A stretch of 64,000 nt of DNA from Actinophytocola xinjiangensis (GTDB lineage: Bacteria > Actinomycetota > Actinomycetes > Mycobacteriales > Pseudonocardiaceae). The position numbers and the translations under genes are program-made. The stretch spans positions 1 through 64,000 of the forward strand of contig NZ_MSIF01000027.1 of assembly GCF_001921215.1 (NCBI RefSeq). Direction: 5' to 3'. The notes under the pieces are model-generated. The model saw nothing but the letters and a program-made list of their open reading frames with translations. It ran no database searches and was not told the origin of the DNA. Below are positions 30,568 to 46,712 of the stretch, in pieces (position 1 is the first letter of the stretch; each line of letters opens with the position of its first letter).

Positions 30568-31535
30568 CGACTCTGCTCCGTCCGGTCATCCTGGAGCGGC
30601 CCACGCAGGTGCCGCGTGCGGTCTGGGGTCGCCGGCACGAGCACGGCCGTTCTGTCCACATCGGACGGTCCGGGCATGCGGCTGCCGGGCAGCCGCACCG
30701 CCGCCGCGCCCCAGGACAACGCCTCGGTCAGGTCGTCCGCGCCGGTCTCGCCGGCCGCGAGGAACCCGGCGAGCATCGCGTCACCCGCGCCGACCGTGCT
30801 GCGGCCCCGGTCGACGGGCGACTCACCCCAGCGCACCCCGCGCCCGTCGACCAGCACGGCGCCGTCGGCCCCCAGGCTGGCCAGCACCGTCGCCGCCCCC
30901 GCCGCGCGCATCCGGTGCGCCGCCTCGATCGCGTCGGCGACCGTGTGGATCCCGAAGCCGACCGACTCGGCCAACTCCTCCCGGTTGGGCTTCACCAGCG
31001 CCGGCCGCGCCGCCAGCGCCGCGCCCAACGCCGGGCCCGAGCTGTCGACGGCGAACCGCACGCCCAACTCGCCCAGCCGGCGGCCGAGCCCGGCGTAGGA
31101 GCCGTCCGGCACGCCCGGCGGCAGGCTGCCCGAGGCCACCACCCAGTCCGCGCCGGCGGCGGCGTCCAGCACCGCCTCCTCGACCCGCGCGAGGTCGTCG
31201 GGCAGCAGCGACCCGCCCGGCTCGTTGATCTTGGTGACCGTGCCGTCCGGCTCGACCAGGCTGACGTTGGACCGGGTGTGCCCGGCGACCGCGACCGCGA
31301 CGACGTCGATGCCCTCCTGGCGCAGCAGCGCGGTCAACTGCTCGCCCTCCGGCCCACCGCAGGGCACCACCGCGCGCGTCGCCACGCCGTGCGCGGCCAG
31401 CGCCCGGGAGACGTTGACGCCCTTGCCGCCGGGGTCGAGGCGGGCGGCGCTGGCCCGGTTCAGCTCGCCGCGCGACAGCCTGGCCACCTCGATCGTGCGG
31501 TCCAGACTGGGGTTGAGCGTCAGGGTGACGATCAC
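30564..31535 (-). CDS. fruK: 1-phosphofructokinase-type PfkB kinase
   Basis: Phosphorylates fructose-1-phosphate, or a similar ketose phosphate such as tagatose-6-phosphate, to the bisphosphate. 323 aa. LTLNPSLDRTIEV at the start, GGKGVNVSRAL for sugar binding, and the catalytic aspartate in STVGAGDAMLAGF are the PfkB/FruK signatures. The GTG at 31535 overlaps the repressor stop by 4 bp. Its company with a mannitol-type EIICB rather than FruA makes the in vivo substrate uncertain. Confidence 0.88.
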   Translation of the reverse strand: MIVTLTLNPSLDRTIEVARLSRGELNRASAARLDPGGKGVNVSRALAAHGVATRAVVPCGGPEGEQLTALLRQEGIDVVAVAVAGHTRSNVSLVEPDGTVTKINEPGGSLLPDDLARVEEAVLDAAAGADWVVASGSLPPGVPDGSYAGLGRRLGELGVRFAVDSSGPALGAALAARPALVKPNREELAESVGFGIHTVADAIEAAHRMRAAGAATVLASLGADGAVLVDGRGVRWGESPVDRGRSTVGAGDAMLAGFLAAGETGADDLTEALSWGAAAVRLPGSRMPGPSDVDRTAVLVPATPDRTRHLRGPLQDDRTEQSR

Positions 31536-32293
31536 ACGCGCACCACCCTCGGTCCCCGCGACTCGATCTCGGCCGCGGTGCGCTCGTCGAGCCCGGTGTC
31601 GGTGATGAACGTGTCGATCTCGGCGAGCCGGCCGAACCGGGCCAGGTGGTCGGTGCTGAGCTTGGTGTGGTCGGCGAGCAGGACCGTGCGGCGCGCGGCG
31701 GCGATCATCGCGCGCTTCACCGCGGCCTCGGCCTGGTCGGGGGTGGTCAGCCCGCGCTGCACGGACACGCCGTTGGTGGCGATGAAGGCGACGTCGACGT
31801 AGCTCTGGGCCAGGGCCTCGATGGCCCACGGGTCGACGCAGGCCAGCGTGCGGGCGCGTACCCGGCCGCCGATGAACAGCACGGTGATGTTGGTCCGCGT
31901 GGCCAGCGCCTGGGCGGCCGGCAGGGAGTTGGTCAACACGGTGAACTGGCGGTCCACCGGCAGGATCGCGGCCAGCCTGGCGGTGGTGGAGCCGGCGTCG
32001 AGCAGGATCGAGCCCTCGTCGGGCAACTCGGCCAGCGCCGCCTTGGCGATCCGGTCCTTCTCGGCGGTGAGCAGGGCGTCCCGCGCGGCGAGCGCCGGCT
32101 CGAAACCCAGACGCTCCACCGGGATCGCGCCGCCGTGGACCCGGCGGAGCAGCCCGTGCCGTTCGAGCACCGACAGGTCCCGGCGGATGGTCTCACCGGT
32201 CACCGACAGTTCGGCCGACAACTCCGCGACGTCCACCCGTCCGTCGCGGCGGGCGCGGTCGACGATGTGCTGCTGCCGCTCTTCCGCATACAT
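31532..32293 (-). CDS. DeoR/GlpR-family transcriptional repressor
   Basis: Probable repressor of the PTS operon, 253 aa. N-terminal helix-turn-helix (about 5-57) with MYAEERQQHIVDRARRDG and VTGETIRRDLSVLE; the C-terminal DeoR sensor (about 75-235) has ILLDAGSTTA, the sugar-phosphate pocket. As first gene of the operon it is autoregulated by inference. Phosphorylated sugars such as fructose-1-phosphate usually relieve such repressors. Divergent from the alditol oxidase. Confidence 0.92.
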   Translation of the reverse strand: MYAEERQQHIVDRARRDGRVDVAELSAELSVTGETIRRDLSVLERHGLLRRVHGGAIPVERLGFEPALAARDALLTAEKDRIAKAALAELPDEGSILLDAGSTTARLAAILPVDRQFTVLTNSLPAAQALATRTNITVLFIGGRVRARTLACVDPWAIEALAQSYVDVAFIATNGVSVQRGLTTPDQAEAAVKRAMIAAARRTVLLADHTKLSTDHLARFGRLAEIDTFITDTGLDERTAAEIESRGPRVVRV

Positions 32294-32311
32294 GTTGATT
32301 TGCCGCCGTTT

Positions 32312-32348
32312 CTCTGTGTTCCTCTGTATTTACCGTCACAGCTGTGAC
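32312..32348. promoter_or_regulatory. operator region: 10-bp-spaced direct repeats and a palindrome
   Basis: CTCTGTGTT (32312-32320) and CTCTGTATT (32322-32330) repeat with exactly one helical turn of spacing, the arrangement seen for DeoR/GlpR-type operators. Just beside them GTCACAGCTGTGAC (32335-32348) is a perfect 14-bp palindrome. Both lie between the divergent deoR-like and alditol oxidase genes, so one or both probably bind the repressor and control both transcripts. Confidence 0.6.
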
Positions 32349-32392
32349 GAGTCAACACCTGATTTCCGAGCGCGGAGGCGGATACTGGGCCG

Positions 32393-33613
32393 GTGGAACG
32401 CAACTGGGCCGGCAACCTCACCTACCGCGCGACCCGCCTCGAGACCCCGACCAGCATCGACGAGCTGCGCCAACTGGTCGCCGAAACACCGAGGATCCGC
32501 GCCCTCGGCTCGCGCCACTCCTTCAGCGACGTGGCCGACACTCCAGCCGTACTCGTGTCACTGGCCGAACTGCCCGGCACCGTCACCGTCGACGGCGACC
32601 GGGTCACCGTGCCGGCCGCCACCAGCTACGGCGACCTGGCCGCGACCCTGCACACCCACGGCCGCGCCCTGCCCAACCTGGCGTCGCTGCCGCACATCAG
32701 CGTCGCCGGCGGGGTCGCCACCGGCACCCACGGCTCCGGCGACCGCAACGGCTGTCTGGCCACCTCGGTCGCCGCGCTGGACGTCGTCGGCGCCGACGGG
32801 CGGCTGACCAGGATCTCCCGCGACGACCCGGAGTTCGCCGGCTCGGTGGTCGCCCTCGGCGCGCTGGGCGTGGTCGTCTCGGTCGTGCTGGACACCGTGC
32901 CGGCCTTCGACCTGCGCCAGACCGTGTACCCGAGGGTGCCGTGGCGGGCCGTACTCGCCGGGTTCGACGAGCTGATGGCCGCCGGCCACAGCGTCTCCCT
33001 GTTCACCGACTGGGCCGGGGAGAACCTGCGCCAGATCTGGGTCAAGTCCACCGGCGAGCCGCCCGCCGACCTGTTCGGCGTCGCACCGGCCACCACCGCG
33101 CTGCACATGATCCCCGGCGAGTCGACCGACGCGGTCACCGCGCAGCTGGGCGTGCCGGGGCCGTGGCTGGACCGCCTGCCGCACTTCCGCCTCGACCACA
33201 AACCCAGCAGCGGCGACGAACTGCAGAGTGAGTACCTGCTGCCCCGCGACCGCGCCCCCGAGGCGCTGCGCCGGCTGCGCGCCCTGGCCGGCCGGATCGC
33301 CCCGGTCCTGCACGTGACCGAGATCCGCTCGGTCGCCGCCGACGACCTGTGGCTCAGCGGCGCCCACGGCCGCGAGACGATCGCCGTGCACTTCACCTGG
33401 CGCAACCTGCCCGCCCAGGTCGCCGCCCTGCTGCCGGCGGTCGAGGCCGCGCTGCTGACGCTGGACGCGCGGCCCCACTGGGGAAAGGTCTTCGCCACCG
33501 GCGACCTCGCCGGGCGGTATCCGCGCTGGTCGGAATTCCGCGCGCTGCGCCGCGATCGCGACCCCGACGGCCGGTTCACCAATCCCTTCCTGACCCGGCT
33601 GGGTCTGGTCTGA
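32393..33613 (+). CDS. alditol oxidase-like FAD protein (AldO/sugar-lactone oxidase family)
   Basis: Oxidises the terminal hydroxyl of alditols such as xylitol, sorbitol or mannitol with O2, giving aldose and H2O2. 406 aa, close to AldO of Streptomyces. The N-terminal FAD domain has GSRHSFS, with His42 as the likely covalent FAD attachment site; GGVATGTHGSG contacts the cofactor. The C-terminus has ARPHWGKVF, the catalytic HWGK block of the family. Divergent from and probably co-regulated with the polyol PTS operon, so the two offer alternative polyol routes. Confidence 0.88.
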   Translation: MERNWAGNLTYRATRLETPTSIDELRQLVAETPRIRALGSRHSFSDVADTPAVLVSLAELPGTVTVDGDRVTVPAATSYGDLAATLHTHGRALPNLASLPHISVAGGVATGTHGSGDRNGCLATSVAALDVVGADGRLTRISRDDPEFAGSVVALGALGVVVSVVLDTVPAFDLRQTVYPRVPWRAVLAGFDELMAAGHSVSLFTDWAGENLRQIWVKSTGEPPADLFGVAPATTALHMIPGESTDAVTAQLGVPGPWLDRLPHFRLDHKPSSGDELQSEYLLPRDRAPEALRRLRALAGRIAPVLHVTEIRSVAADDLWLSGAHGRETIAVHFTWRNLPAQVAALLPAVEAALLTLDARPHWGKVFATGDLAGRYPRWSEFRALRRDRDPDGRFTNPFLTRLGLV

Positions 33614-33730
33614 CGTTCTTCCCGCGCCGACAATCTGTCCTATCTGACGCACCGGGATTTCTCCGGCGACGCATAATCGACAGTGTCGGACGGCACCGCC
33701 TCGTCGTCGGTGCCGTGGGAAGGATGGCCA

Positions 33731-35491
33731 GTGACACTGCCGCCGGCGGTCCATCGAACAATCGTCGTCGTCGACGTCGAGGGATTCACCGACTCGGGAC
33801 GTCTGGGCGTCGACCACCTCGCCGTGCGCGGGGGAATGTACGACGTCCTGAATACCGCGTTCACCGACTCGGCCATCGACTTCGACTCCTGCGAGCACGA
33901 GGACCGGGGCGACGGCGTGCTCGTGCTGGTGCCGCCGACGGTGTCCAAGAGCGTGATCGCCGACCGCCTGCCCGACCGGCTGGTCGCCGCGCTGCGCCGC
34001 TACAACTCCACCCGGGTGCCGACCTCCCGGTTCCGGCTGCGGGTGGCGATGCACTCCGGCGACATCCGCCGCGACGGCGCCGGCTGGGCCGGCCAGCCGG
34101 TCATCGACACCTTCCGGATCATCGACGCCGACGCCGTGAAGACCGCGCTGCGCGAGTCCGACCGGATGATCGCACTGATCGTCTCCGACCACTTCTACAC
34201 CGACGTCATCCAGGGCGACCCGGGCACCGTGCCCGAGTCCTACACCCACGTCCAGGCCGTCACCAAGAACTTCAGCAAACCCGCGTGGCTGCGCCTGCTC
34301 GGCCACGACGTCACCGCGCGGCCGGCCACCGAACCCACCGCGCGCCCCGAGGTCCTCGGCGTCGTCCGGCCCGCCGACGAACAGGCGCTGCGCCCGCTGC
34401 TGCATGACCAGAACCCGCCCAGGATGAGCACGCTGCTCGGCCGCGCCGCCCAGGGGGTGATTCCGCTGCCCCGCCACGAGACCGTGCCCGACGCCTGGGC
34501 GGCGTTCCAGTTCCTGTCCGACTTCAACGCCGACGTGGACGGCATTCCGCCCTCGATGCTGTTCCTGCAGCTGATCGCGGCCGAACTCGACGACGACACC
34601 GGCGAGCGGCTGCGCGCCTGGATCGCCGACCAGTCACGGCGATTACGGCGCGGCCGGGAGTTGGCCGACCACCCGGTCACCCGCACGCCGGTGCCCGACG
34701 AACCGCACCTGCACCTGACGATCATGGTCGAGCCGGACTCGATCGACCCCAGCCGCTGCCTGCTGTCCTCCTGGCGCCAGGACGACCCGCTGAGCTGGCC
34801 GCCGGTGCGCGGCCCGGTGCGCGAGGTGGAGATGGACGAGTTGGAGTACCGGGTCGACGAGATCATCCTGGACGCCGAGGGCGCGTGGGCCGACAAGGGC
34901 ATCTCCGCGGCCGTGGAATTCCTGCTGCCCCGCACATTGCTGAGCCTGCCGGTCGGCCGGTGGAGCAAGGAGCACGGTTCGGGCAAACCGCGGCCACTGT
35001 CGTTCGATTATCGCGTCAGTATAAGGTCGCTCGAGCGGATGCGCACGAGGCACTGGCACCGTGCCTGGCACGTACGATGGGACTCCATGCTGGAAAACCC
35101 CACCTCCGACCGGATGCACTATTCCGGTTCGGCGAAGGAGCATCCCATCGACGCCGTACTGAGCGACCCGCACTGGGTTGGGCTGGTGATGGCGAAACCG
35201 CCGTCCCCCCAACCAGAACCGGGCGCCGCGCCGGATGAGCTGATGTCCGCGCTCCGCAGCGGGCTGCCGGTGATCTTCTGGCACCCCGACGCCGGCCCCG
35301 AGGATCTCCGGAAGTTGATCGCCGAGGTGCTGCCCGACGGAAGTGGATTGATGGACCGCCTGAGGAAACAAAAGCTGCACGATTCTGGAACGGTCAACAA
35401 CAACTCACTCGTTCGCGATTTGGTGGTAATGTGGGACGACCCGAAAAGAGTAATAGTTCTCGATCAACCGGTGGACCCGACGGAACCGTAA
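33731..35491 (+). CDS. class III cyclase-like domain fused to a VMAP-C (vWA-MoxR-associated) protein
   Basis: Proposed effector/signalling subunit of a ternary NTPase system, 586 aa. Residues about 8-170 look like a class III nucleotidyl cyclase: VVVDVEGFT (metal Asp15), EDRGDG (Asp61), RVAMHSGDI, and a dimer motif altered to QPVIDTFRI, where the usual Asn is Asp, so activity is uncertain. Residues about 210-300 form a helical linker. The C-terminus (about 310-586), with LLPRTLLSLPVGRW, VSIRSLERMR and GLPVIFWHPDAG, matches VMAP-C as I remember it. The GTG at 33731 has GGAAGGA upstream; a start at 33683 is less likely. First gene of a three-gene operon. Confidence 0.78.
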   Translation: MTLPPAVHRTIVVVDVEGFTDSGRLGVDHLAVRGGMYDVLNTAFTDSAIDFDSCEHEDRGDGVLVLVPPTVSKSVIADRLPDRLVAALRRYNSTRVPTSRFRLRVAMHSGDIRRDGAGWAGQPVIDTFRIIDADAVKTALRESDRMIALIVSDHFYTDVIQGDPGTVPESYTHVQAVTKNFSKPAWLRLLGHDVTARPATEPTARPEVLGVVRPADEQALRPLLHDQNPPRMSTLLGRAAQGVIPLPRHETVPDAWAAFQFLSDFNADVDGIPPSMLFLQLIAAELDDDTGERLRAWIADQSRRLRRGRELADHPVTRTPVPDEPHLHLTIMVEPDSIDPSRCLLSSWRQDDPLSWPPVRGPVREVEMDELEYRVDEIILDAEGAWADKGISAAVEFLLPRTLLSLPVGRWSKEHGSGKPRPLSFDYRVSIRSLERMRTRHWHRAWHVRWDSMLENPTSDRMHYSGSAKEHPIDAVLSDPHWVGLVMAKPPSPQPEPGAAPDELMSALRSGLPVIFWHPDAGPEDLRKLIAEVLPDGSGLMDRLRKQKLHDSGTVNNNSLVRDLVVMWDDPKRVIVLDQPVDPTEP

Positions 35492-35504
35492 GGGGTTTTC
35501 ACGG

Positions 35505-36593
35505 ATGAGCGTGAACGAACAGGACACGGAACCCACCGACCGGGCGGCGCACGTCGAACCGCCGGCCTGGTGGATCTACCGTGGCAGCGGCCGGCCCACC
35601 CACGACCTGGACCCGATCACGCTACTGCCGCCGCCTCCGCCGTGGCGGGCGTTCCGGGGAGGCCCACTGCCCGACGAGAGCACCGACACCTCGCCACCGG
35701 ACGACGGCGAGGCCGACCGGCGCCTGGGCACCGAGTTCCACCTGTCCGACCGCGACATCGACTTCCACGAGCTGAACCTGGTCAACGCCGCGCTCTACCT
35801 GCGCCGCCCGCTGCTGGTCACCGGCAAACCGGGCACCGGCAAGTCCAGCACCGCCTACCGCCTGGCCAGGGAACTGGGCCTTGGCCGGGTGCTGCGCTGG
35901 GCGATCACCAGCCACACCACGTTGCAGTCCGGCCTCTACAGCTACGACGCCATCGGGCGCGCCCAGGCCGCCGCGACCGCCCAGGCCACCCGGGGCGGCG
36001 AGCCGGCCGAGGAGCCGCCCATCGGGGACTTCGTGCGGCTCGGCCCCCTGGGCACCGCGTTCCTCCCGACCCGCCGCCCCCGCGTCCTGCTGGTCGACGA
36101 GCTGGACAAGAGCGAGGCCGACCTGCCCAACGACCTGCTGTCGATCTTCGAGGAAGGCGAGTTCCCGATCCACGAACTGGCCAGGGTGCGCGGCCGGGTC
36201 CCCGAGGTCACCGTGCACACCGCCGACCCCAACGGCACCGCGCGAGTGGTCGACGGGCGGGTCGCCTGCCACGCCTTCCCGGTCGTGGTGATGACCAGCA
36301 ACGGCGAACGCGAGTTCCCGCCGGCGTTCCTGCGCCGCTGCCTGCAACTGGAGATCCGCGAACCCACCCTCGAACAGCTCGCCGCGATGGTCGCCAACCA
36401 CCTGCTCGACCCCGCCGGCGAACACCGCGAACGGCTGGTCCGCGAGTTCGCCGAACGCAGCCGGGCCGAGGGCGGGCTGCCGGCCGACCGACTGCTCGAC
36501 GCCGTGTTCCTGGCCACCTCGGGCGCCTACCAACCGGACCAGGTCGCCTGGCCCCGACTGGTCGACGCGCTCTGGCGCCGGCTGACGGTGTGA
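35505..36593 (+). CDS. MoxR-type AAA+ ATPase
   Basis: ATP-driven remodelling subunit, 362 aa. A Pro/Asp-rich N-terminal extension (about 1-70) precedes Walker A TGKPGTGKSS (about 106-114), Walker B RVLLVDELDKS (about 194-203), the sensor MTSNGEREFP, and an arginine finger region FLRRCLQLEI. MoxR ATPases act with vWA proteins on protein complexes; here the vWA partner is the next gene, whose start overlaps this stop (GTGTGA). Thirteen bp separate it from the VMAP gene. Confidence 0.88.
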   Translation: MSVNEQDTEPTDRAAHVEPPAWWIYRGSGRPTHDLDPITLLPPPPPWRAFRGGPLPDESTDTSPPDDGEADRRLGTEFHLSDRDIDFHELNLVNAALYLRRPLLVTGKPGTGKSSTAYRLARELGLGRVLRWAITSHTTLQSGLYSYDAIGRAQAAATAQATRGGEPAEEPPIGDFVRLGPLGTAFLPTRRPRVLLVDELDKSEADLPNDLLSIFEEGEFPIHELARVRGRVPEVTVHTADPNGTARVVDGRVACHAFPVVVMTSNGEREFPPAFLRRCLQLEIREPTLEQLAAMVANHLLDPAGEHRERLVREFAERSRAEGGLPADRLLDAVFLATSGAYQPDQVAWPRLVDALWRRLTV

Positions 36594-39500
36594 GTGACGT
36601 GGCCCGGCCGGCCGATGCCCCCGACCCCGCCGCCCCCCGGGCGGAGCCGTCGGCCGCCGGTCGGCGCCACCTGCGCCTCGACGACCTGACCTGGACCGAC
36701 GTCGGCGACATCATCTGGCTGGCCTCGGCCATCGAACGTCCCGGCGCCCCACCGCCACCACCGCCGGCAGTGGAGGAGGACCGCGACGTGCCGACCTTCG
36801 ACGACTCCGAGGCCACCCTCGCGTCGACCGGACCGAGGCCGCCGGACCCGCCGGCCACCGAGACCGCTGAGGCCGCCGAGCCGCCACCGCTCCCCGAGGC
36901 GAAGCAGACCGAGGCGAAGCAGGCCGAGGCGGCGCCCACCCGGTGGCGCGGCCTGCGCATGCTGGCCGGCGAGGGCGGCAGTGCCGCGAAGGTCGCGGTC
37001 CGGGATTCCCTGGACTATTTCCGCGCACTGCGCCCGTTGAAACGAAAAATCCGTTCGCGGCGACCGGAGGACGTCGTCCTGGACGAGGAGGCGACCGCCG
37101 AGCAGGCCACCGAAACCGGATTGTGGTGGCCGGTCGTGCGGGCCAGGAAAGAGCGCTGGCTCGACCTCACGCTGGTTCTCGACAACGGTCCGACAATGGG
37201 GCTGTGGCGGTCCAAGATAGCGAACTTCGCCGCCCTCCTGGAACAGCTCGGTGCTTTCCGGTCCATTCAGATCAGGCTGCTGGAGGTCGACGGGGACCGG
37301 GCGGTGCTGCGTGGCGGGACACCGAACGCCGCGCCCCGCGACCCGGCCGAGATCCTCGACCACTCCCACCGCAGGGTGGTACTGCTGCTCACCGACGGCA
37401 TCGGCGAGCCGTGGCGCCGGCAACTGCTGCACCCCGTGTTGGCCCAGTGGAGCCGGTCGATGCCGGTCAGCATCGTCAACCTCGTGCCGCAGTGGCTGTG
37501 GCAGCGCGGTGGCCTGGAGCTGCACCGGGCCACGCTCAACCCGCGCGGCACGGTGAAACCCAACCGGCACTGGACCTTCCAGCTGCCGGAGGCGTGGCTG
37601 GCGCGCGACCCCGACCGGGTGGCCCCACCCGGCGCCGTCCCGGTGCCCGTACTGGAACTGCAACCCCGGTGGTTGAGCTGGTGGGCAAGACTGGTCATGG
37701 GCGAATCCAGTTCAGTGGACGCGACGGTGGTTCTCGCCGCCGACACGCCCAACGCGGTGATCTCCACGAACGAGTCCCTCACCGGTCAGGAAAGAGTCGC
37801 CAGGTTCCGCGGCAACGCATCTCCGCCGGCATTTCGCCTGGCCACACTGCTGGCCGCGCTCCCGGCGAGACTGGACCTCGCGGAACTCGTCCAGCAGCAT
37901 TTCCTACCCGACGGAGGACCGGAGTACGTCGCCGAGATCCTGCTCTCGGGGATCATGTACGCTCCCGGTCCCAGGGGCCGGTCGTCCACTTCGGACAAGG
38001 GTGGGGAACTGGCATTTCCTGAGGCAGTCCGTGAACTGCTCCTCATCGGTGCCCGGCGATCGGAGACCGCCAGCGTCGTCGGGGTCGCGGCCGAGTACTT
38101 CGGTGAACGGATTCCGGTTCTCGGTCACCTCCGAGCAGCCATCGCCGACCCGCACAACACACCGGACCTGGAGCTCACCCCCGATTCCAGAACCGATGTC
38201 GAGCTCGAAAGCGCCGTCATGCGCGCGCTTTCCGGGCCCTATCTCAGTCGGGCGGACCGGCTGCGCACCGTCCTCGCGCAGGCCAGCCACCCGGCTGGCC
38301 TACCAGAACCCGCCACGAGCCGACATGCGAGCCCCACGATGCCGAAGCTGCCCGAGCAGGCCGTTCCCACCTCCGACACCTACGCGTCGGCGGACAGCCG
38401 GCCGGGCAGCCAACGCCAACCCGATCCGGTCGATCCGGTCACCACACCGCTGACCCATCCGGGCCCGCGCCCGTACCCGAGGCGCCAGCCGGACGACCCG
38501 CCACCCGTGTGGGGGAACGTCCCGCCGCGCAACCCGAACTTCACCGGCCGCGGCGAACTCCTTGAGCAGCTGGGCAAGCGCCTGACCAGCGGAACCACCG
38601 CCGTGCTGCCCTCGGCGCTGCACGGCATGGGCGGTATCGGCAAGACCCAGATGGCCGCCGAGTACATCTACCGGCACCTGCAGAACTACGACCTGGTGTG
38701 GTGGATCGACGCCGCCCACGTCACCCAGATCCGGGCGGGCCTGACCGACCTGGCCAGGGTGCTCAACCTGCCGGGCGCCGCCGAGACCACCGTCGCCGTG
38801 CCGGCGGTGCTGGAGTCGCTGCGCACCGGCCGCCCGTTCCGCCGCTGGCTGCTGGTGTTCGACGCGGCCGACAGCCCCGAGTCGGTGCTGCCGTTCTTCC
38901 CCCGCAACGGCCCCGGTGAGATTCTGGTGACCTCCCGCAACTCCGACTGGGCGGGAATAGCCAGGCCGCTGGAACTGGCCGTGTTCAAACGCGAGGAAAG
39001 CATCGCGCTGCTCGGCAAACGCGGCCCGGAAATCACTGTGGCGGAAGCCGAGGAACTGGCCGAGAAACTCGGCGACCTCCCCCTGGCGATCGAACAGGCG
39101 GCGGCCTGGCGCGCGGTCACCGGAATGCCCGTCCGGGAGTACCTGCGCCTGTTCGACGAGTCCGTCGCGGAAATCCTGGACGCCGCCACCGCCCCGAACC
39201 ACGAGGTGTCGGTCGCCGCCGCCTGGAACGTGTCGTTCGACGAGCTGAAGAACCGCAACCCGGCGGCCCACCAGATCCTGCACATCTGCGCGTTCTTCTC
39301 CCCCGAACCCATTTCCCGCGACCTGCTCACCGGCGTCAGCCGCGTGTCGATCTCCCCCGAACTCGACGCCGCCCTGCGCGACCCGATCAAACTCGCCCGC
39401 GCCATCCGCGACATCAACCGCTACGGCCTGGCCAAGATCGACCACGGCAACAACACCCTCCAACTGCACCGCCTGGTCCAGTTGGTGCTCCGCAACCGGG

Positions 39501-40978
39501 TCATGGCCCCCCAGATCCACGCCCAGATGCAACACGGCGCCCACCAACTGCTCGCCAGCCTCGACCCCAACGACCCCGAGCAGAGCCGCCACTGGCCCCG
39601 CTACCGCGAGCTGCTCCCCCACGCCTACGCCGCCAACGTCATGGACTGCGACGACGACTGGCCCCGCCAACTCATCATCAACCTCATGCGCTACCTGTTC
39701 GAGTACCGCGACCACGAGGAGGCGGCGAAACTCGCCACCACCGCCAAGGAGCACTTCACCCGAACGCTGGGCCCGACCCACCCCCAGACCCTCGACGTGT
39801 CGTCGCGCCTGGGCCTGTACCTGTGGGCGATCGGCAGGTACTCGGAGGCCGCCGAGCTCAACCAGCGCACCCTCGCGCTGCGCATGCAGGTCTCCGGCGA
39901 GGAGAACGAGGAGACCTTCGCCCTCCAGCGCAACATCGTCATCGACCTGCGCGCCCAGGGCGACTTCGCCGCGGCCGGGAAGCTGAGCGAGGAGGTCCTG
40001 CACAAGGCCCGGCGCATGTTCGGCAACGACGACCCGGAGGCGCTCGCCGCCGCCTTCCAGCACGGCATCAGCCTGCGTCTGGCCGGCGACTACCGGGCCG
40101 CCGCCGAACTGGACGAGGAGACCTACCGTCGCCGCGTCGAGGTTCTCGGCCCCGATCACCCGCACACCAGCAACACGCGCGCGGCCCTGATCGTCGACCT
40201 CCGGGAGGCCGGTGAGTACGGCCAGGCGCGGGTCATGCAGGAGAACCACGCCGAGTCCTTCCGGATCCGCTACGGCGAGACCCCGGACTCGATCATGGTG
40301 GACATCATCCTGTCCCTGACCCGCCGCAAGGACGGCGACCACGCCGGGGCTCTGCCGCTGTCGAAGGACGCCCTGGAGCGGTCCCGGCTCCGCTACGGCG
40401 ACGACCACGCGAACACCATCGTCTGCTCGCTCGCCCACTCGATCGACCTGCGCCACGCGGGCAAGTTCACCGACGCGAAGGAACTGGGCGAGAACGCGTT
40501 CGGAAAGTACCGGAACACGCTCGGCGAGCACCACCCACACACGCTGGCGGCCACGGTCGACCTCGCGGTGACCCTGCGGCTGATGGGTGAGCCGTCCCAG
40601 GCTCGGGTGCTCGACGAACGCGCGCTGGAGCACTACCGGATCGGGATCGGACCCGACCATCCGTACGCATTGGTCGCCATGATCAACCTGGCCAGCGACC
40701 TGTCCGCCCTCGGCGAGTACGACAAGGCGATCGACCTGGGTCGCGACGCCCTGGAACGGGGCACCCGGGTACTCGGGGCCGACCACCCGACCATGCTGGC
40801 GGCCGCGTTCAACCTCGGGCTCGACCTGGACGCGTCCGGTCGGGCCGAGGAGGCGAAGCCTTTCCTGGCACCGACCGTCGCCAGGTACCGCAAGGTGCTC
40901 GGCGAGGCGCATCCGGGAACCCAGGCGGCCGTGCGCGGCACCCGAGCCGACTGTGACATCGACGCGATCCTCATGTAG
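36590..40978 (+). CDS. giant vWA/SAV_2336-like, NB-ARC and TPR protein (FxsT-like)
   Basis: Predicted regulatory STAND NTPase, 1,462 aa. Order: a variable Pro/Glu-rich N-terminus (1-140); a vWA-like domain (about 185-390) with a modified metal motif DNGPTM and LLTDG; a helical part to about 580 and a Pro-rich linker; NB-ARC with P-loop GMGGIGKT (about 679-686), LVFDAAD, VTSRN and GDLPLAI; then about ten kinesin-light-chain-like TPRs (1,050-1,455) marked by HPxTL. This matches the FxSxx-COOH system TPR protein (FxsT) as I know it. The GTG at 36590 overlaps the MoxR stop. It converges on the hydroxylase gene with an 8-bp overlap. Confidence 0.82.
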   Translation: MSDVARPADAPDPAAPRAEPSAAGRRHLRLDDLTWTDVGDIIWLASAIERPGAPPPPPPAVEEDRDVPTFDDSEATLASTGPRPPDPPATETAEAAEPPPLPEAKQTEAKQAEAAPTRWRGLRMLAGEGGSAAKVAVRDSLDYFRALRPLKRKIRSRRPEDVVLDEEATAEQATETGLWWPVVRARKERWLDLTLVLDNGPTMGLWRSKIANFAALLEQLGAFRSIQIRLLEVDGDRAVLRGGTPNAAPRDPAEILDHSHRRVVLLLTDGIGEPWRRQLLHPVLAQWSRSMPVSIVNLVPQWLWQRGGLELHRATLNPRGTVKPNRHWTFQLPEAWLARDPDRVAPPGAVPVPVLELQPRWLSWWARLVMGESSSVDATVVLAADTPNAVISTNESLTGQERVARFRGNASPPAFRLATLLAALPARLDLAELVQQHFLPDGGPEYVAEILLSGIMYAPGPRGRSSTSDKGGELAFPEAVRELLLIGARRSETASVVGVAAEYFGERIPVLGHLRAAIADPHNTPDLELTPDSRTDVELESAVMRALSGPYLSRADRLRTVLAQASHPAGLPEPATSRHASPTMPKLPEQAVPTSDTYASADSRPGSQRQPDPVDPVTTPLTHPGPRPYPRRQPDDPPPVWGNVPPRNPNFTGRGELLEQLGKRLTSGTTAVLPSALHGMGGIGKTQMAAEYIYRHLQNYDLVWWIDAAHVTQIRAGLTDLARVLNLPGAAETTVAVPAVLESLRTGRPFRRWLLVFDAADSPESVLPFFPRNGPGEILVTSRNSDWAGIARPLELAVFKREESIALLGKRGPEITVAEAEELAEKLGDLPLAIEQAAAWRAVTGMPVREYLRLFDESVAEILDAATAPNHEVSVAAAWNVSFDELKNRNPAAHQILHICAFFSPEPISRDLLTGVSRVSISPELDAALRDPIKLARAIRDINRYGLAKIDHGNNTLQLHRLVQLVLRNRVMAPQIHAQMQHGAHQLLASLDPNDPEQSRHWPRYRELLPHAYAANVMDCDDDWPRQLIINLMRYLFEYRDHEEAAKLATTAKEHFTRTLGPTHPQTLDVSSRLGLYLWAIGRYSEAAELNQRTLALRMQVSGEENEETFALQRNIVIDLRAQGDFAAAGKLSEEVLHKARRMFGNDDPEALAAAFQHGISLRLAGDYRAAAELDEETYRRRVEVLGPDHPHTSNTRAALIVDLREAGEYGQARVMQENHAESFRIRYGETPDSIMVDIILSLTRRKDGDHAGALPLSKDALERSRLRYGDDHANTIVCSLAHSIDLRHAGKFTDAKELGENAFGKYRNTLGEHHPHTLAATVDLAVTLRLMGEPSQARVLDERALEHYRIGIGPDHPYALVAMINLASDLSALGEYDKAIDLGRDALERGTRVLGADHPTMLAAAFNLGLDLDASGRAEEAKPFLAPTVARYRKVLGEAHPGTQAAVRGTRADCDIDAILM

Positions 40979-42788
40979 CGGGGACGAGTTGCCCGATCCA
41001 GGCCGCCAGGCCCTCCGGGGTGGGTGCGGTCCGGCTCTGGCGCAGTGTCCGGTGGACCGCGCGCACGACCTCCGGGCAGCCCAGCAGGGCGCGGGCGGCC
41101 GGGTCAGGGCCGCTCGCCGCCAATGCCAGCCCCAGTCCCACGAGGGACGTCGGCCGATCGGGGTCGTCGACCAGTTCCGCGCGGTATCCCCGGACGGCGT
41201 CGGCGAACCGGCCGCTGGCGTAGGCCAGGTCGGCCGGGGTGGCGTCCGGGACGGTCGGCCACAGCTCGTCCAGCTCCGGCAGGCCGACGCCACCGGTCCG
41301 GAGCTGGACGAGGTCCGTGCGGGCCGGTGACCACAGGCCGTCGGGGACCGGGGTCGGGGGCGTGGCGCTCGCGTCGATCATGGCCGGCGGCCGTGGTCGC
41401 CCGGCCGTCCAGGCGGCCGCCATCCTGGCGATGTCCGCCGGATCCGGGCGCAGGTGCCGGACCCGCCACCCCGCGCGGTGGTCCTTCGCCGCCGCGTCGG
41501 CGAGTTCGGCCACGTCCGGGGGGACCGGCTCCCCCTGCCAGCGGCCGAGCCGCTCGGCCATGCCGTCGAGAAACCGTTGCCCGGCAACGGTCAGGGCGCT
41601 GTCGCCGCCCAGCGCGTGCAGCGCGAACCAGGTCTGCTGACGCCAGTAGGCGAACTCGAAGGCGGCCCGCCGGTCACCGGTGGCGGCGAGGGAGCGCCAG
41701 AACGCCACGACCCCGAGGAAGGCGTAGAGGCCCTGGACGGCGCCGCTGACCGGGCGCGGGTCGTCCCGCCAGGGAACGTAGAACCGTTCGCGCGGGTCGT
41801 TGTCGTGCAACCGGATCAGGTGCAGCAGGCCACCGAGCACGATGTGCTGGAACTCGTGGATCAGCGTGCTGGCCAGGGACGTACCGTCCGTTGGCCGCCC
41901 GACCACGGCGCTGCCGAACGCCTCACCGGTCGAGGCACTCGGGTTGCGGTAGAGCACCTGGGGTTTGGGAACGAGCGAACTGAGGCCGATCGGCATGGTC
42001 TCGGCGAACCCCGGCAGGTGGGTGACGATCAGCTGGCAGGCCTCGTCGATCAGGCGCTGCCACTCCCGCACCTCGGCGACCGGCAGGCGCTGGGGCGGGA
42101 TCGGCTCGTAGAGCCCCCGGTACGGGTCGAGATCGTCCAGGCGCACCGTGAAGCGGCGGGCACCGACCCGCACCCGCACCTTCCGCACGGCCCACCAGCC
42201 GGGGGCGTCCAGGCCGGGGGACTCCGGCAGGACAACGGAACTGGTGTCGTCGCTGACGGTGAACCGGCCGCGGTCGCCGCGCACGACGGCGACCGAGAAG
42301 GGTTCGGTCGTGGCCAGCCGGGCCATGCCCAGCGACGGCAGGATGACGTTACCGTTCCAGGCGGGCACCTCGGCCGCGAAGTCGAGGCCGGCGCGGATGG
42401 CGGCCGTCGCGGCCAGGGCGTGCCAGTGACCGAGGTGCATCCACAGTGGACCGATACCGTCGGTTCCGTTGCGGCACAGGCGGGTCGTGTAGCCGGCCCA
42501 GCTACCGGTGTAGGGGTGGGTGAGGATCCGGTCGAACGCCTTGGGCGAGCGGGACTCCACCCGTGCCAGCAGTTCCCAGGCGATGTCCAGCGGGGGCAAC
42601 GGTCCCAGCCGTCGCGGCGACTTCGCCGACTCCTCCATCAGCGCGCGGAGCAACAACTTGCGCCGGCTCCGTTCGGCACGGCGCAACCGTCGCAACACTC
42701 CCGCGTTGCCGTCGAGCCGAGCCAGATCGTCGAGATCCCGCCAGGACAGGCGATGGAACGCCGGGCGTTCCGCTCCGTCCTGGGGCAT
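40971..42788 (-). CDS. HExxH-type (alpha-ketoglutarate) peptide beta-hydroxylase
   Basis: Predicted RiPP tailoring enzyme, 605 aa, that hydroxylates a precursor peptide at a beta carbon. The metal motif HEFQH lies at residues 311-315 with the downstream Arg/Asp-rich segment LIRLHDNDPRERFYVPWRDDPRP. The family is the one seen fused, in inactivated form, to FxSxx radical SAM maturases (FxsBH); here it is free-standing with the motif intact, so probably active. The C-terminal 120 residues resemble a repeat/TPR-like tail. The ATG shares one base with the precursor stop (TGATG), giving tight coupling. Confidence 0.8.
   Translation of the reverse strand: MPQDGAERPAFHRLSWRDLDDLARLDGNAGVLRRLRRAERSRRKLLLRALMEESAKSPRRLGPLPPLDIAWELLARVESRSPKAFDRILTHPYTGSWAGYTTRLCRNGTDGIGPLWMHLGHWHALAATAAIRAGLDFAAEVPAWNGNVILPSLGMARLATTEPFSVAVVRGDRGRFTVSDDTSSVVLPESPGLDAPGWWAVRKVRVRVGARRFTVRLDDLDPYRGLYEPIPPQRLPVAEVREWQRLIDEACQLIVTHLPGFAETMPIGLSSLVPKPQVLYRNPSASTGEAFGSAVVGRPTDGTSLASTLIHEFQHIVLGGLLHLIRLHDNDPRERFYVPWRDDPRPVSGAVQGLYAFLGVVAFWRSLAATGDRRAAFEFAYWRQQTWFALHALGGDSALTVAGQRFLDGMAERLGRWQGEPVPPDVAELADAAAKDHRAGWRVRHLRPDPADIARMAAAWTAGRPRPPAMIDASATPPTPVPDGLWSPARTDLVQLRTGGVGLPELDELWPTVPDATPADLAYASGRFADAVRGYRAELVDDPDRPTSLVGLGLALAASGPDPAARALLGCPEVVRAVHRTLRQSRTAPTPEGLAAWIGQLVPAT
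42440..42450. repeat. recurrent palindrome TCCACAGTGGA, copy 3
   Basis: Perfect copy inside the hydroxylase coding sequence. Confidence 0.7.
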
Positions 42789-42988
42789 CAGTCGATCCGC
42801 TCACCACCACCGCCTTGGTTAGAGCTTCGGTAGCGGGCGGCGACGCGGCGGGTGCGGTCGACGACGTGGCCCAGGGAGCGGCGCAACGGTTCGCTGTCCA
42901 GTTCACGGAGCCTGGTGAAGGGGACGGCGTCCAGGTCGATCAGTTCGGATTCGATGCCTGGTTCGATATCCGCCGAGAACGAATTCAT
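42788..42988 (-). CDS. FxsA-like RiPP precursor peptide, 66 aa
   Basis: Probable ribosomal peptide substrate. A leader-like part has LIDLDAVPFTRLRELD followed by PLRRSLGHVV, the pattern I associate with FxSxx-COOH precursors. The core region has YRSSN, a Tyr version of FxSxx, but it is followed by a nine-residue Gly-rich tail instead of ending the protein. The ATG at 42988 has GGAGGG 10 bases upstream; in-frame ATGs at 42997 and further upstream have worse spacing. Stop and hydroxylase start overlap (TGATG). No radical SAM enzyme is adjacent. Identity as a precursor is inference from sequence and context. Confidence 0.7.
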   Translation of the reverse strand: MNSFSADIEPGIESELIDLDAVPFTRLRELDSEPLRRSLGHVVDRTRRVAARYRSSNQGGGGERID

Positions 42989-43058
42989 GCCATCCATTCC
43001 CTCCGCCGTGAGCAGACATTCCATGATAGCCGACCCGATCCCATCTGGTTCAGACCAA

Positions 43059-43766
43059 TCAGGGTCCGGGGGATGGTGAGCGGCCGGCGGCGAGTTCGCG
43101 CAGGGTCTCCGGGTGCATGATCGTGATGCGTTGGCGGGCCGTGGCGACCACGCCGAGGCGGCGCAGTTCGTCCAGGCCGCGACCGAGGGTGCTGCGGGAG
43201 ACCCTGGCGAAGCTGGCCAGCTCGCTCTGGTTGAAGTGCAGATCGACCTGGTGGCCCTCGTCCCAGTCCGGGGCGTACTGGAGGGCCAGTTCGAGCAGGA
43301 CCGCCGCCAGGCGTTGGGGGAAGTCGGGGCCGCCGGCCTCCAGACGGAGGCGGTCGGACTGCTGGAGGCGGATCGCCACGGTGCGCAGGAGTTCCTCGGC
43401 GATGTGCGGGCGGCGGCGCAGGACGCCGAGAAGTTTCTCGCGGGCCACGACGAGGGTGTGCACCTCGTCGATGGCCTCGATGGTCGCGGTTCTTGGCAGG
43501 CCGCTGATCGGGGCCATCTCGCCGACGATCTCGTGAGGGCCACGGGCCGCGAGGGGGGCGTCGTCGCCCCGGTAGTTGGTGGCGCTGATCTTCACCCAGC
43601 CTCGCAGGACGACGAACATGCTGGCGGGCGGGCTGCCCTGGAGCGCGAGGATCTCGCCGGGCCGCCACACCCGGACGTGACCGGCGTCGGTCAGCTCCGC
43701 GCGTTCGGCGGCCGTGAGGCGGTGCCAGGCTCGGCGTTCGCCATTCTCATCGGCCGAGAAGCCCAT
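43059..43766 (-). CDS. Crp/Fnr-family cyclic-nucleotide-binding regulator
   Basis: Transcription factor, 235 aa. The N-terminal cyclic-nucleotide-type beta-roll (about 20-135) has ILALQGSPPASMFVVLRG and GEMAPISGLPRTATIEA, the pocket segment (GE...RTAT) needed to bind the phosphate of cAMP/cGMP. The C-terminal winged helix (about 150-225) has NQSELASFARVSRSTLGRGLDEL. The ATG has GGGGAGG 8 bases upstream. It lies 70 bp before the precursor-hydroxylase operon on the same strand and may control it. Confidence 0.9.
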   Translation of the reverse strand: MGFSADENGERRAWHRLTAAERAELTDAGHVRVWRPGEILALQGSPPASMFVVLRGWVKISATNYRGDDAPLAARGPHEIVGEMAPISGLPRTATIEAIDEVHTLVVAREKLLGVLRRRPHIAEELLRTVAIRLQQSDRLRLEAGGPDFPQRLAAVLLELALQYAPDWDEGHQVDLHFNQSELASFARVSRSTLGRGLDELRRLGVVATARQRITIMHPETLRELAAGRSPSPGP

Positions 43767-43960
43767 CTCGCGGCCTCCCCGGTTGAACGGACGGGCACGG
43801 TTTCGCCCGATGTTTCATTTGACGCATCACTCGCTCCCCCAGGCCGCCAGCATAGTCAGTAGGTACGAAACCAACTGTTGCCACCGCAATCATCAATTGT
43901 GCCAGGCAAAAGGCCGTATCACCAGCACGGCCCTGGCGAACGGTACTTGGGGAGGACACC

Positions 43961-44359
43961 ATGCGAAGTGCGGAGAACGTGCTCTGGCGGGTGGAGGACC
44001 GGCGGCGCCCGAGCGCGGCCCCGACCCCGTGGGCACCGAAATCGTTCAGCCGGACGCCGGCCGTCTTCGCGCCGCACCCGCCGCTGGCCTCCGGCGGCTG
44101 GTACAGCGGCACCGGCCAGGAGACCGCCGGCGCCGGGCGGGTGCCGCTGGGCGCCCCGGCCGACAGGTCCGCGGTGGCCGCGTTGCTGTTGACGCTGCTG
44201 TTCGGCCCGCTCGGGCTGGGCTACCTGTCGAGGGCGGCCGGGGTGCTGGCCGGGGCGGCCAGCGTCGGCCTGCTGGTCGTGGCCGGCGTGGGGGCGCTGG
44301 CCGTGCTCTGGCCGCTGGCGATGGTGGTCTCAGTGATCGCGACGGCCAACCGGCACTGA
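43961..44359 (+). CDS. small two-helix membrane protein
   Basis: A 132-aa protein with a hydrophilic, Pro/Ala-rich N-terminal half and two hydrophobic segments (about 70-90 and 95-125). The turn GPLGLGYLSRAAG recalls TM2-type proteins. The ATG is preceded by GGGGAGG. No function recognised. Its end overlaps the convergent TetR gene by 30 bp. Confidence 0.65.
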   Translation: MRSAENVLWRVEDRRRPSAAPTPWAPKSFSRTPAVFAPHPPLASGGWYSGTGQETAGAGRVPLGAPADRSAVAALLLTLLFGPLGLGYLSRAAGVLAGAASVGLLVVAGVGALAVLWPLAMVVSVIATANRH

Positions 44360-45430
44360 CGTCGGTGCCGATGTCATGGTGTGGCCGGCGCCGATACCGG
44401 TCGCGCGGGTGACGATCCGGCCGCCAGCCACCCGGATCGCGGTCTCGGTCGTGTCGGTCACCGTCTCGACGCCGGCCGCCGCCGCGACGGCGCCGGTCTC
44501 GTCGCACACGACTTCCAGGTGGGGCCAGGAAGGCCGCGGGACCGCCTGGCGCAGGCAGGCCGTCAGGTCGGCCACCGCCAGGCGGGCCAGCGGTGCCAGT
44601 TCCGCGGGGTCGCCGGTGACCATCACGACGGTCACCCGGGTGCCGGGGGCGACCGCGCGGGCGGCGTCCTCGGCCGCCGAGAGCCGGTTCAGGCCCAGCA
44701 CGGTCAGCACGCCGTCGGCGGCCAGGTCGACCGGCTCGTCGGCCACCAGGCCGGTCACCGGGGCGGGCGGGCGCCACGGCTCGTCGACCGACCGGGCGTC
44801 CGGGTGCAGGCCGGTGGCCAGCAGGTGGTCGTCCAGGTCGAGGTCCGCGAGCCGTTCGCAGGCGCGGACGACGCCGAACGGTTCCCCGAACCCCGGGGCG
44901 GCGGCCGCCAGCTGAGCCGCGCCGTGCAGGGTGGTCAACACAGCCTCCGCCACCCGCACACCGCGTCCGCCGCCCCGGCCCAACCGTTCCAGCGAGAGCC
45001 CCAGCAGGGTGGCGTTGAGCGTCATGAGCTGGGCGAAGGGCCGGCGGGTGGTCTCGTCGGCGAGGATCTCGGGCAGCAGGTCGCGGGTCAGGCGGCCGTG
45101 GCGCTCGTCGGTGGCCAGCGGCAGGCGGGCGACCCATTCGCGGGCCAGGGCGCCCAGGGCGGCGGCGGGGGTGTCGCCGGGGTCGGTGACCGTGGCGGGG
45201 CGGCGGGTCTGGTCGGCGAGCACGGCGAAGTAGAGCGCGCGTTTGCCGGGGAAGTTGGAGTAGACCGCGCCCCGGGTCAGCTCGGCGCGCTCGGCGATGT
45301 CGTCGATCTTCGCCGCGCGGAAGCCGCGGTCGGCGAACTCGTCGGCGGCGGCGGCCAGCACCCGCGCCCGGTTGTGTTCGCGCAGTTCCGCCCTGGTGAG
45401 TCGCACCCCGCCCTCCCCTCGCGTTGCCAT
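44330..45430 (-). CDS. TetR-family regulator with an extra C-terminal domain
   Basis: Probable repressor of the divergent P450 gene, 366 aa, nearly twice the usual TetR length. The N-terminal HTH (about 10-60) contains FRAAKIDDIAERAELTRGAVYSNF. A TetR ligand-binding region follows to about 195. The remaining 170 residues are an alpha/beta-looking domain (VLTVLGLNRL, VTVVMVTGDP, LEVVCDE) that could be a degenerate thioredoxin-like fold without cysteines; this is a guess. The ATG at 45430 is preferred; a TTG at 45445 is the alternative. Confidence 0.85.
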   Translation of the reverse strand: MATRGEGGVRLTRAELREHNRARVLAAAADEFADRGFRAAKIDDIAERAELTRGAVYSNFPGKRALYFAVLADQTRRPATVTDPGDTPAAALGALAREWVARLPLATDERHGRLTRDLLPEILADETTRRPFAQLMTLNATLLGLSLERLGRGGGRGVRVAEAVLTTLHGAAQLAAAAPGFGEPFGVVRACERLADLDLDDHLLATGLHPDARSVDEPWRPPAPVTGLVADEPVDLAADGVLTVLGLNRLSAAEDAARAVAPGTRVTVVMVTGDPAELAPLARLAVADLTACLRQAVPRPSWPHLEVVCDETGAVAAAAGVETVTDTTETAIRVAGGRIVTRATGIGAGHTMTSAPTSVPVGRRDH

Positions 45431-45460
45431 TCGGTCCACTGACAAGATACCGTCACCATT

Positions 45461-45492
45461 CAGATGATGAGATCATATGTTCAGACCATCTG
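45461..45492. promoter_or_regulatory. 32-bp imperfect palindrome, candidate TetR operator
   Basis: Centred on CATATG (45474-45479), with 13-base arms matching at 9 positions, beginning CAGATG and ending CATCTG. It lies between the divergent TetR and P450 genes and stops just before the P450 ribosome site. Confidence 0.65.
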
Positions 45493-45500
45493 GAGGACGC

Positions 45501-46658
45501 GTGCACGAGATCGACCTTGCCGACCCCGAGGTGCTGGCGGACCCGTTCACCGCCTACGGCCGGGCCAGGGAAGCCGGCCCGGTCGCCAGGCTGCCGATGC
45601 CCGGCATCGGCACGGTGTGGGTGCTGACCAGGCACGAGGACGCCCGCGCCATGCTCGGCGACCCGCGCTTCGCGCTGACTTCGGCCAGCTTCCTGCGCCC
45701 GGACGTGCCAGAGCACTGCCTGCGCTACATGCGCTCGATGGCCGAGATGAACGGCGCCGAGCACAAACGCCTGCGCCGCACGGTCAGCCCCGCGTTCTCG
45801 GTGCGCCACGCCCGCTCGCTCGCGCCGGTCATCGAGCGGATCGTCGGGCGGCTGCTGGACGCGCTGCCCGACGGTGACCCGGTCGACCTCGTGCCACACC
45901 TGACCCGGCCGCTACCGATCGAGGTGATCTGCGAACTGGTCGGCATCCCGGAGGCCGACCGCCCGCGCTGGCACGAGTACGGCGCGTCGGTCGCCTCCGG
46001 CGCCGGCCCGGCCTTCGCCGAGGCCGTCCCCCGGTTCATCGCCGACGCGATCGCCGCCGTCGAACGGGCCCGTGCCGACCCCGGCGACGACGTGTTGGGC
46101 ACCCTGGTCGGCACCGAGGACCTCGCCGAGACCGACCTGGTGATGCTGGTCTGGAACCTGATGCTGGCCGGCCAGACCCCCACGAACCTGATCGCCAACG
46201 CCGTGGGCCACCTGCTCACCGACCCCGACGCGCTCGCCGCGCTGCGCGCCGACCCCGGGCTGCTGCCGGGCGCGGTCGAGGAACTGATCCGCTGGTGCGG
46301 GCCGACGCTGCTGACCATCCCCCGCTACGCCACCGAGGACCTCGACCTGCACGGCACGCCGGTCGCCAAGGGCGAGGCGGTCTGTGTGTCGGTGGCCGCC
46401 GCGCACCGCGACCCGAGGGCCTACGCCGACCCCGACCGGTTCGACCCGCGCCGCCCGGCCGGCCCACCCGGCCACCTCGGTTTCGGGCACGGGCCGCACT
46501 TCTGCCTCGGCGCGGCGCTCGCGCGCACGCAGACCGAGGTGGCGATCGGCGCGCTGCTCGACCGGTTTCCCCGGCTGGCGCTGGCCGGGGACCTGGCCGC
46601 GCTGCGGGCGCCGGACCCGGGCACCTGGCGGCTGTCGGCGTTACCCGTGTCCCGCTGA
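45501..46658 (+). CDS. cytochrome P450
   Basis: Class I bacterial P450 monooxygenase, 385 aa, soluble. Key motifs: I-helix AGQTPT, EELIR (ExxR) and heme loop FGHGPHFCLGAAL with axial Cys335. The GTG at 45501 is preferred because GGAGG precedes it and the palindromic operator is then wholly upstream. An in-frame ATG at 45477 would fall inside the operator. No ferredoxin gene adjoins. Probably induced by the ligand of the divergent TetR protein. Confidence 0.92.
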   Translation: MHEIDLADPEVLADPFTAYGRAREAGPVARLPMPGIGTVWVLTRHEDARAMLGDPRFALTSASFLRPDVPEHCLRYMRSMAEMNGAEHKRLRRTVSPAFSVRHARSLAPVIERIVGRLLDALPDGDPVDLVPHLTRPLPIEVICELVGIPEADRPRWHEYGASVASGAGPAFAEAVPRFIADAIAAVERARADPGDDVLGTLVGTEDLAETDLVMLVWNLMLAGQTPTNLIANAVGHLLTDPDALAALRADPGLLPGAVEELIRWCGPTLLTIPRYATEDLDLHGTPVAKGEAVCVSVAAAHRDPRAYADPDRFDPRRPAGPPGHLGFGHGPHFCLGAALARTQTEVAIGALLDRFPRLALAGDLAALRAPDPGTWRLSALPVSR

Positions 46659-46668
46659 GCACGACGAC

Positions 46669-46700: not shown

Positions 46701-46712
46701 CGCTGACCGGGG

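Follow-up and report, generated by a model that had tools for sequence, protein, structure and literature searches.

A VMAP-ternary locus of the RxD type in Actinophytocola xinjiangensis pairs an NB-ARC/TPR protein with a precursor peptide and a predicted oxygenase

Introduction

A stretch of 64,000 nucleotides from the soil actinobacterium Actinophytocola xinjiangensis (contig NZ_MSIF01000027.1, positions 1 to 64,000), referred to here as the window, carries six genes at 33683-43766 that face each other as two operons. The plus-strand trio encodes, in this order, a VMAP protein, a MoxR-type ATPase and a large protein uniting vWA, NB-ARC and TPR parts, and the minus-strand trio a Crp-type regulator, a precursor peptide and a stand-alone HExxH enzyme. 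The locus raises the question whether the two operons act as one system and, if so, what a modified peptide would do beside an NB-ARC/TPR protein. A first description made from the letters alone (the sequence-only reading) joined the operons on the grounds of adjacency and saw in the combination something beyond its separately known parts; such a combination had, however, already been described by Kaur, Burroughs, Iyer and Aravind (eLife 2020; PMC7159879). According to the relevant passages of that article, about 20% of the VMAP-ternary systems in actinobacteria include a module for peptide processing, composed of a HExxH gene, taken for a zincin-like metallopeptidase, and a variable precursor of the FxSxx, RxD or acidic type; in the last two types the AP-ATPase and TPRs are fused to vWA, and a CRP-like gene is sometimes present. 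The same passages assign peptide capture to vWA and offer the peptide as a toxin or a signal. What the present analysis adds is a predicted oxygenase chemistry and a likely site for it in the precursor tail, as suggested by modelled folds and the comparison of precursors.

Results

The locus is almost certainly a peptide-equipped VMAP-ternary system of the RxD type, a kind already on record, because its precursor ends in ERID and its vWA protein is fused to an NB-ARC/TPR part. With that type, as far as the article describes it, the locus shares the VMAP-MoxR-vWA order, the vWA-fused NB-ARC/TPR part, the pairing of a HExxH gene with an RxD precursor and the CRP-like gene of some members, whereas it differs in the HExxH protein, a peptidase for Kaur et al. 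and of predicted oxygenase fold in the window. All six genes were found where the sequence-only reading had placed them, with convergent 3' ends overlapping by 8 bp at 40971-40978, and its calls of VMAP-C, MoxR, SAV_2336/vWA, NB-ARC, HExxH and Crp were borne out by profile searches. The VMAP and MoxR genes are separated by 13 nt, the GTG start of the vWA gene overlaps the MoxR stop (GTGA), and the precursor and HExxH genes overlap via TGATG at 42788. The same locus recurs within the genus (genome G031; contig NZ_JAFFZE010000012.1 of Actinophytocola gossypii).

The precursor gene (42788-42988, minus strand; alternative starts at 42997 and 43024) encodes 66 amino acids with an FxsA-type leader, a Gly-rich core and the C-terminus GGGGERID, the final R-I-D codons lying at 42791-42799 (minus strand), as given by the letters of the open reading frame (ORF) and by tail statistics. 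For comparison, 163 HExxH ORFs were reduced to 137 distinct ones by removing 19 duplicates and seven that failed a narrow motif filter (three of these seven, in loci L058, L078 and L044, do hold HExxH, and the other four do not). A finder based on a regular expression and position identified 93 distinct precursor candidates adjoining 94 of the 137, leaving 43 rows without a precursor; a separate inspection was needed to find the precursors of L114 and L117 and the second one of L118, and a few of the 93, such as L059, L130_937 and L054_7760, are probably false. In 49 of the 93 precursors R-x-[DE] forms the very C-terminus, whereas no other distance from it accounts for more than 8. Among these 49, the last residue is Asp in 46 and Glu in three, position -2 is Ile or Val in 39, position -4 is Glu, Lys or Gln in 41, Gly in five and Ser in two, and position -5 is Gly or Ala in 38 and Pro in eight; the window precursor carries Glu at the former position and Gly at the latter. 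Unlike the conserved tail, the sequence ahead of it is variable, with a Gly/Ser-rich stretch in many precursors. Other tails are of the Q-x-Q or S-V-G kind or unsorted, the Q-x-Q label having wrongly taken a few GYQPQRDA-type tails, and one row counted as RxD ends in QRDE.

The leaders of RxD and FxSxx precursors appear to be kin, because a model built from the 49 RxD precursors, searched against a set of 44 sequences, picks out the FxSxx precursor of L032 (E 3.7e-11), which itself scores 48 bits with TIGR04268 and adjoins an FxsB of 481 bits. The description of the window precursor as FxsA-like in the sequence-only reading accordingly holds for the leader and fails for the tail, which reads ERID, and TIGR04268 gives 14.3 bits against a cut-off of 28, over model positions 2-31 of 44. 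The FxSxx-COOH label once given to the minus-strand operon had to be replaced by that of an RxD type without radical S-adenosylmethionine (SAM) enzyme, the precursors having the FxsA leader alone in common. The two kinds of system share leader homology, a HExxH domain and a C-terminal region matched by NF040586, but the window lacks the FxSxx tail and has its NB-ARC/TPR part fused to vWA. A classification of the window as an FxSxx system was rejected on three counts: no FxsB on the contig, no FxSxx tail and a precursor below the TIGR04268 cut-off. FxsB (TIGR04269) was not found on the locus contig (C20), and within the genome only on C23 (430 bits) and C67 (34 bits). The first of these belongs to a second, Fxs-like set of the source genome (L073, G000:C23:548503-568164), with FxsB at 430 bits, a HExxH domain and FxSxx_TPR at 557 bits, for which the precursor finder gave no precursor.

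The adjoining enzyme gene (40971-42788, minus strand; HExxH motif at 41844-41858) encodes a predicted oxygenase with a C-terminal TPR-like segment. It matches the mod_HExxH model TIGR04267 with 168 bits against a cut-off of 40, and NCBIfam names this domain as being of the alpha-ketoglutarate HExxH oxygenase type. A profile of the enzyme matches SjiH (PDB 22nu, positions 14-433, E 8.2e-92) and ChlH (8s5f, positions 299-417, E 7.2e-18), with which it has HE..H and a PWR.D.RP stretch in common (motif H-E-x-x-H ... W-R-x-D-x-R), and H311, E312, H315, W340, R341, D343 and R345 are unchanged across all 24 aligned rows. The AlphaFold2 model (predicted local distance difference test, pLDDT, 92.5) retrieves SjiH (22ob, E 3.0e-25, template modelling score 0.89 on the target) and the ChlB HExxH domain (8s5f, E 3.8e-10) in Foldseek. 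The alpha-ketoglutarate oxygenase reading follows from these fold matches and invariant residues, and the protein is thus very probably an oxygenase and not a peptidase. ChlB/ChlH and SjiH share the fold and the active-site motif with it, while ChlB/ChlH differ by a fusion to radical SAM as reported in PMC12636437. A search by title or abstract start found no paper on the SjiH enzyme. In the enzymes of L058 and L078, PWLD replaces the WR of the 24 aligned rows, and their adjoining precursors end in Q-G-Q-R-D.

Re-reading a HEXXH relative fused to radical SAM as an oxygenase is not new (PMC12636437). According to that work (also bioRxiv 2025.10.30.685615), PflC and PosC of Pseudomonas carry out beta-hydroxylation of Gln and oxidative cleavage at a C-terminal ARMD; alpha-hydroxylation with cleavage is favoured by small residues and beta-hydroxylation by larger ones. 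The likeness to the window, which is one of description only, lies in the alpha-ketoglutarate HEXXH class and in a precursor ending in R-x-D (A-R-M-D there); the Pseudomonas loci differ by an NHLP-type leader and by MNIO, GNAT and transporter genes. The resemblance of the RxD motif to ARMD is therefore taken as an analogy for the chemistry only, and since R, M and D are each dispensable to PosC in the single Ala variants reported there, it is no proof of a shared use. Applied to the window tail, the PflC/PosC rule would allow hydroxylation at Glu -4 or cleavage at Gly -5. The main text of PMC12636437 mentions none of VMAP, Kaur and NB-ARC, and no paper joining oxidative HExxH chemistry with these conflict loci was found in the open-licence literature.

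Whether the parts belong together was approached in 150 genomes of the same family, with a neighbourhood distance of 12 kb, and in a wider scan of GTDB species genomes with a 24-row HExxH alignment, where the best 80 of 536 matches yielded 78 loci; the two samples share genomes. TIGR04267 occurs in 65 of the family genomes, VMAP-C in 43 and FxSxx_TPR (E<=1e-90) in 56. Neighbourhoods were counted for 99 of 103 HExxH places (at least 40 bits), for all 60 VMAP-C places and for the best 86 of 108 listed FxSxx_TPR places (at least 397 bits), and fetched stretches cover 71 of the 103 HExxH places (at least 90 bits). At 68 HExxH places of at least 120 bits, VMAP-C and FxSxx_TPR are both near in 47, FxSxx_TPR alone in 18 and neither in three, while the 31 weaker places (40-120 bits) comprise one with both partners, two with TPR alone and 28 with neither. 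Seen from VMAP-C, 48 of 60 places have both HExxH and FxSxx_TPR, 11 neither and one TPR alone. The wider scan gave NB-ARC/TPR with VMAP in 59 of the 78 loci, NB-ARC/TPR alone in 14 and neither in five, and in 64 the HExxH and NB-ARC/TPR genes are convergent and no more than 1.5 kb apart. NB-ARC/TPR is the most constant partner of HExxH (65/68 against 47/68 for VMAP, and 73/78 against 59/78). The sequence-only reading had proposed such a neighbourhood check, with independent occurrence in most genomes as the outcome that would speak against one system; the parts recur together and this outcome did not arise. The expectation that all six genes recur was too strict, because only 26 of 99 VMAP-bearing rows show linkage to Crp. 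Tandem sets of VMAP-MoxR-vWA/NB-ARC/TPR and HExxH occur in one stretch in L054/L056, L050/L069 and L071/L072.

Three Streptomyces loci (L114, L117 and L118) combine the HExxH enzyme and RxD precursors, ending in GARCD, AARCD and AERID and present twice in L118, with another partner. VMAP, MoxR, vWA and NB-ARC/TPR were unmatched within the roughly 21.8 kb fetched, and the convergent place is taken by a conserved ORF of 314-381 amino acids with 57-59% identity to the first of them (e.g. L118:11788-12768). By eye it has two hydrophobic, apparently transmembrane stretches, and no Pfam model matched it over cut-off. This partner is rare, being found in one of 295 genomes in the genus of G172 and in none of 396 phylum genomes, a sample without a positive control. 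Since RxD persists in these three loci without NB-ARC/TPR, the tail more likely serves the enzyme than the receptor.

Turning to the plus-strand proteins, the MoxR-type AAA+ ATPase (35505-36593, plus strand; AAA_5 E 3.1e-8) carries WWIYRG and PPWRAF, matching the N-terminal motifs WxhapG and PsWRxa as printed in PMC7159879. The vWA-NB-ARC-TPR protein (36590-40978, plus strand, 1462 amino acids by ORF and profile searches) comprises a SAV_2336 N-terminal region with the vWA domain (36689-38113; NF041121, 403 bits), an NB-ARC domain (38561-39094; PF00931 E 9.1e-8) and a TPR array spanning approximately 39695-40891 (TPR_12, TPR_10 and TPR_16 matches), all on the plus strand, and FxSxx_TPR (NF040586) matches its C-terminal part with 828 bits against a cut-off of 300. 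The metal ion-dependent adhesion site (MIDAS) residues D-x-G-x-T ... T-D-G are present. MIDAS integrity was tried and rejected as a marker of peptide type: losses at the Ser/Thr position cluster with relatedness, and those in some loci of the Q-x-Q type form one part of the tree and are therefore no independent test.

The VMAP ORF is open from 33683, but the GTG at 33731, behind AAGGA, is the likelier start, which gives a protein (33731-35491, plus strand, by ORF, profiles and fold) with a class III cyclase-fold domain (33749-34300), a VMAP-M0 middle region (34367-34669; PF19916 E 2.9e-21) and a VMAP-C domain (34754-35443; PF20028 E 1.2e-34), all likewise on the plus strand; this is the only VMAP-C place found in the source genome. 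The cyclase-fold domain has no Pfam match in the window protein, and Guanylate_cyc is reached by one of 42 aligned members (E 0.044). Even so, the call of a cyclase-like domain in the sequence-only reading is upheld by profile and fold, with a match to PDB guanylyl cyclases (E 1.5e-6) and an AlphaFold2 model (pLDDT 90.3) that finds Cya2 in Foldseek (E 7.0e-9), and the two metal Asp and the Arg are present in all 57 cyclase-bearing rows examined, the window included. Class III cyclases usually also carry a transition-state Asn. Where Crp lies beside the precursor (14 rows), this position is Asp in 11, Asn in two and Ile in one, the window; where Crp lies beside VMAP, Asn is kept in 9 of 12 rows.

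The Crp/Fnr regulator of the window (43059-43766, minus strand) has a cyclic nucleotide-binding domain (PF00027 4e-17) and a helix-turn-helix domain (PF13545 5.8e-15). The 99 VMAP-bearing rows divide into 26 with cyclase and Crp, 31 with cyclase alone, 42 with neither and none with Crp alone, so that all Crp-linked rows (26/26) bear a cyclase and no cyclase-free row (0/42) has Crp; L058 and L078 would add two rows with cyclase and without Crp. An exception, masked by duplicate removal, is L071, where Crp lies 2.2 kb upstream of a cyclase-free VMAP. The cyclase search model, derived from the domain in the window, may overlook other cyclases. As proof of a cyclic nucleotide loop the link was rejected, being insignificant after relatedness (median sign-test p 0.5): a quick tree gave seven independent pairs on starred branches, of which about two were informative, all in the expected direction. 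Weakened by relatedness, by L071 and by the missing Asn in most precursor-adjacent Crp rows, the Crp-cyclase link is a lead only. An apparent cyclase gene fragment (weak model match) lies at L056:19072-19686, upstream of a cyclase-free VMAP.

Rfam gave nothing at gathering score within 28000-48000. The upstream neighbours (29110-32293, minus strand) include a DeoR/GlpR-type regulator and, by eye, a phosphotransferase system permease and a sugar-kinase-like ORF.

Discussion

Gene content, arrangement, recurrence and predicted folds are established, and from these we infer how the parts would act together. VMAP and vWA would capture an infection-related target, ATP hydrolysis by MoxR would remodel VMAP/vWA and thereby set a threshold, and the NB-ARC/TPR part would serve as a switch resembling a nucleotide-binding leucine-rich repeat receptor (NLR). 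The HExxH enzyme would bind the FxsA-type leader and oxidise residues at the conserved C-terminal tail, either by beta-hydroxylation or by alpha-hydroxylating the small residue at -5 and cleaving the backbone. The NB-ARC/TPR protein would then read the modified peptide or the released tail, which would tune or trigger it, and Crp, where present, may couple the peptide output to a cyclic nucleotide. An RxD-type conflict system with a peptide-governed NB-ARC/TPR switch seems, on balance, the best explanation of the whole. Among its parts, the RxD tail is probably the recognition or reaction site of the enzyme, a role in defence is an evenly balanced proposition, and the action of the peptide through NB-ARC/TPR is put forward with some hesitation. 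Its most specific form, in which alpha-hydroxylation at -5 and a cut would yield an amidated peptide and a capped x-R-x-D fragment, one of them the ligand of the NLR-like switch, and in which the same pair would be joined to the two-transmembrane partner in a few Streptomyces, is improbable in all its details.

Several observations weigh against the peptide-governed switch. Tails other than R-x-[DE] end 44 of the 93 precursors, and PADLOC gave weak ATPase matches to MoxR only. Partners are not constant: both are missing at 3 of the 68 strong and 28 of the 31 weaker HExxH places, no HExxH gene lies within 12 kb of 12 of the 60 VMAP-C places, and L114, L117, L118, L151 and L144 lack NB-ARC/TPR in the wider scan (the L144 stretch ends 151 bases past its HExxH gene). 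The window cyclase domain has Ile at the position of the transition-state Asn. Finally, the Pseudomonas precursors, as described in PMC12636437, have Ala at -4 where the window has Glu, preceded by Gly at -5, so that a small residue does not stand directly before R-x-D in the window.

The peptide might instead be the effector itself, a modified toxin or bacteriocin freed or activated when the sensor fires. This is in line with the toxin-or-signal proposal as worded by Kaur et al. (PMC7159879) and with the Gly/Ser-rich stretch before the tail of many precursors; it is rather unlikely, as the pre-tail part varies while the tail is kept, and as no transporter- or immunity-like gene is among the six genes, the flanks not having been searched for one. 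Hydrolysis of the precursor by the HExxH protein acting as a zincin peptidase, the reading of 2020, has in its favour the HExxH motif and the report that PflC, of the same enzyme class, hydrolyses when without its leader (PMC12636437). It is very doubtful, given that the oxygenases SjiH and ChlB are the sole fold matches below E 0.001 and that the first peptidase, BepA, appears at E 0.079. RGD binds integrins, and on this model the RxD tail could be a ligand of the vWA MIDAS, the hydroxylase merely tuning it. Of 112 aligned rows, 104 retain both MIDAS Asp (some single-genome loci being counted twice and one row being all gaps), and Kaur et al. assign peptide capture to vWA in the passages cited (PMC7159879); set against this, the three Streptomyces loci have RxD precursor and enzyme with vWA and NB-ARC/TPR not found in about 21.8 kb, which makes such a role of the tail a distant prospect. 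Chance linkage of two unrelated operons is scarcely credible, for although they lie on opposite strands and are therefore not one transcript, and 28 of the 31 weaker HExxH places are without VMAP and TPR, both are found near strong HExxH homologues in 47 of 68 and 59 of 78 cases, and 64 of 78 share the convergent joint.

Returning to the peptide-governed switch, these loci place a bacterial NB-ARC/TPR protein alongside a peptide that is genetically encoded and presumably oxidised, and for the peptidase-release proposal of 2020 one can now substitute a specific prediction, namely oxidation at a defined site. Should the peptide prove to be the ligand of the switch, the system would be the bacterial equivalent of immune receptors gated by peptides, the NB-ARC/TPR protein resembling immune receptors of plants and animals.

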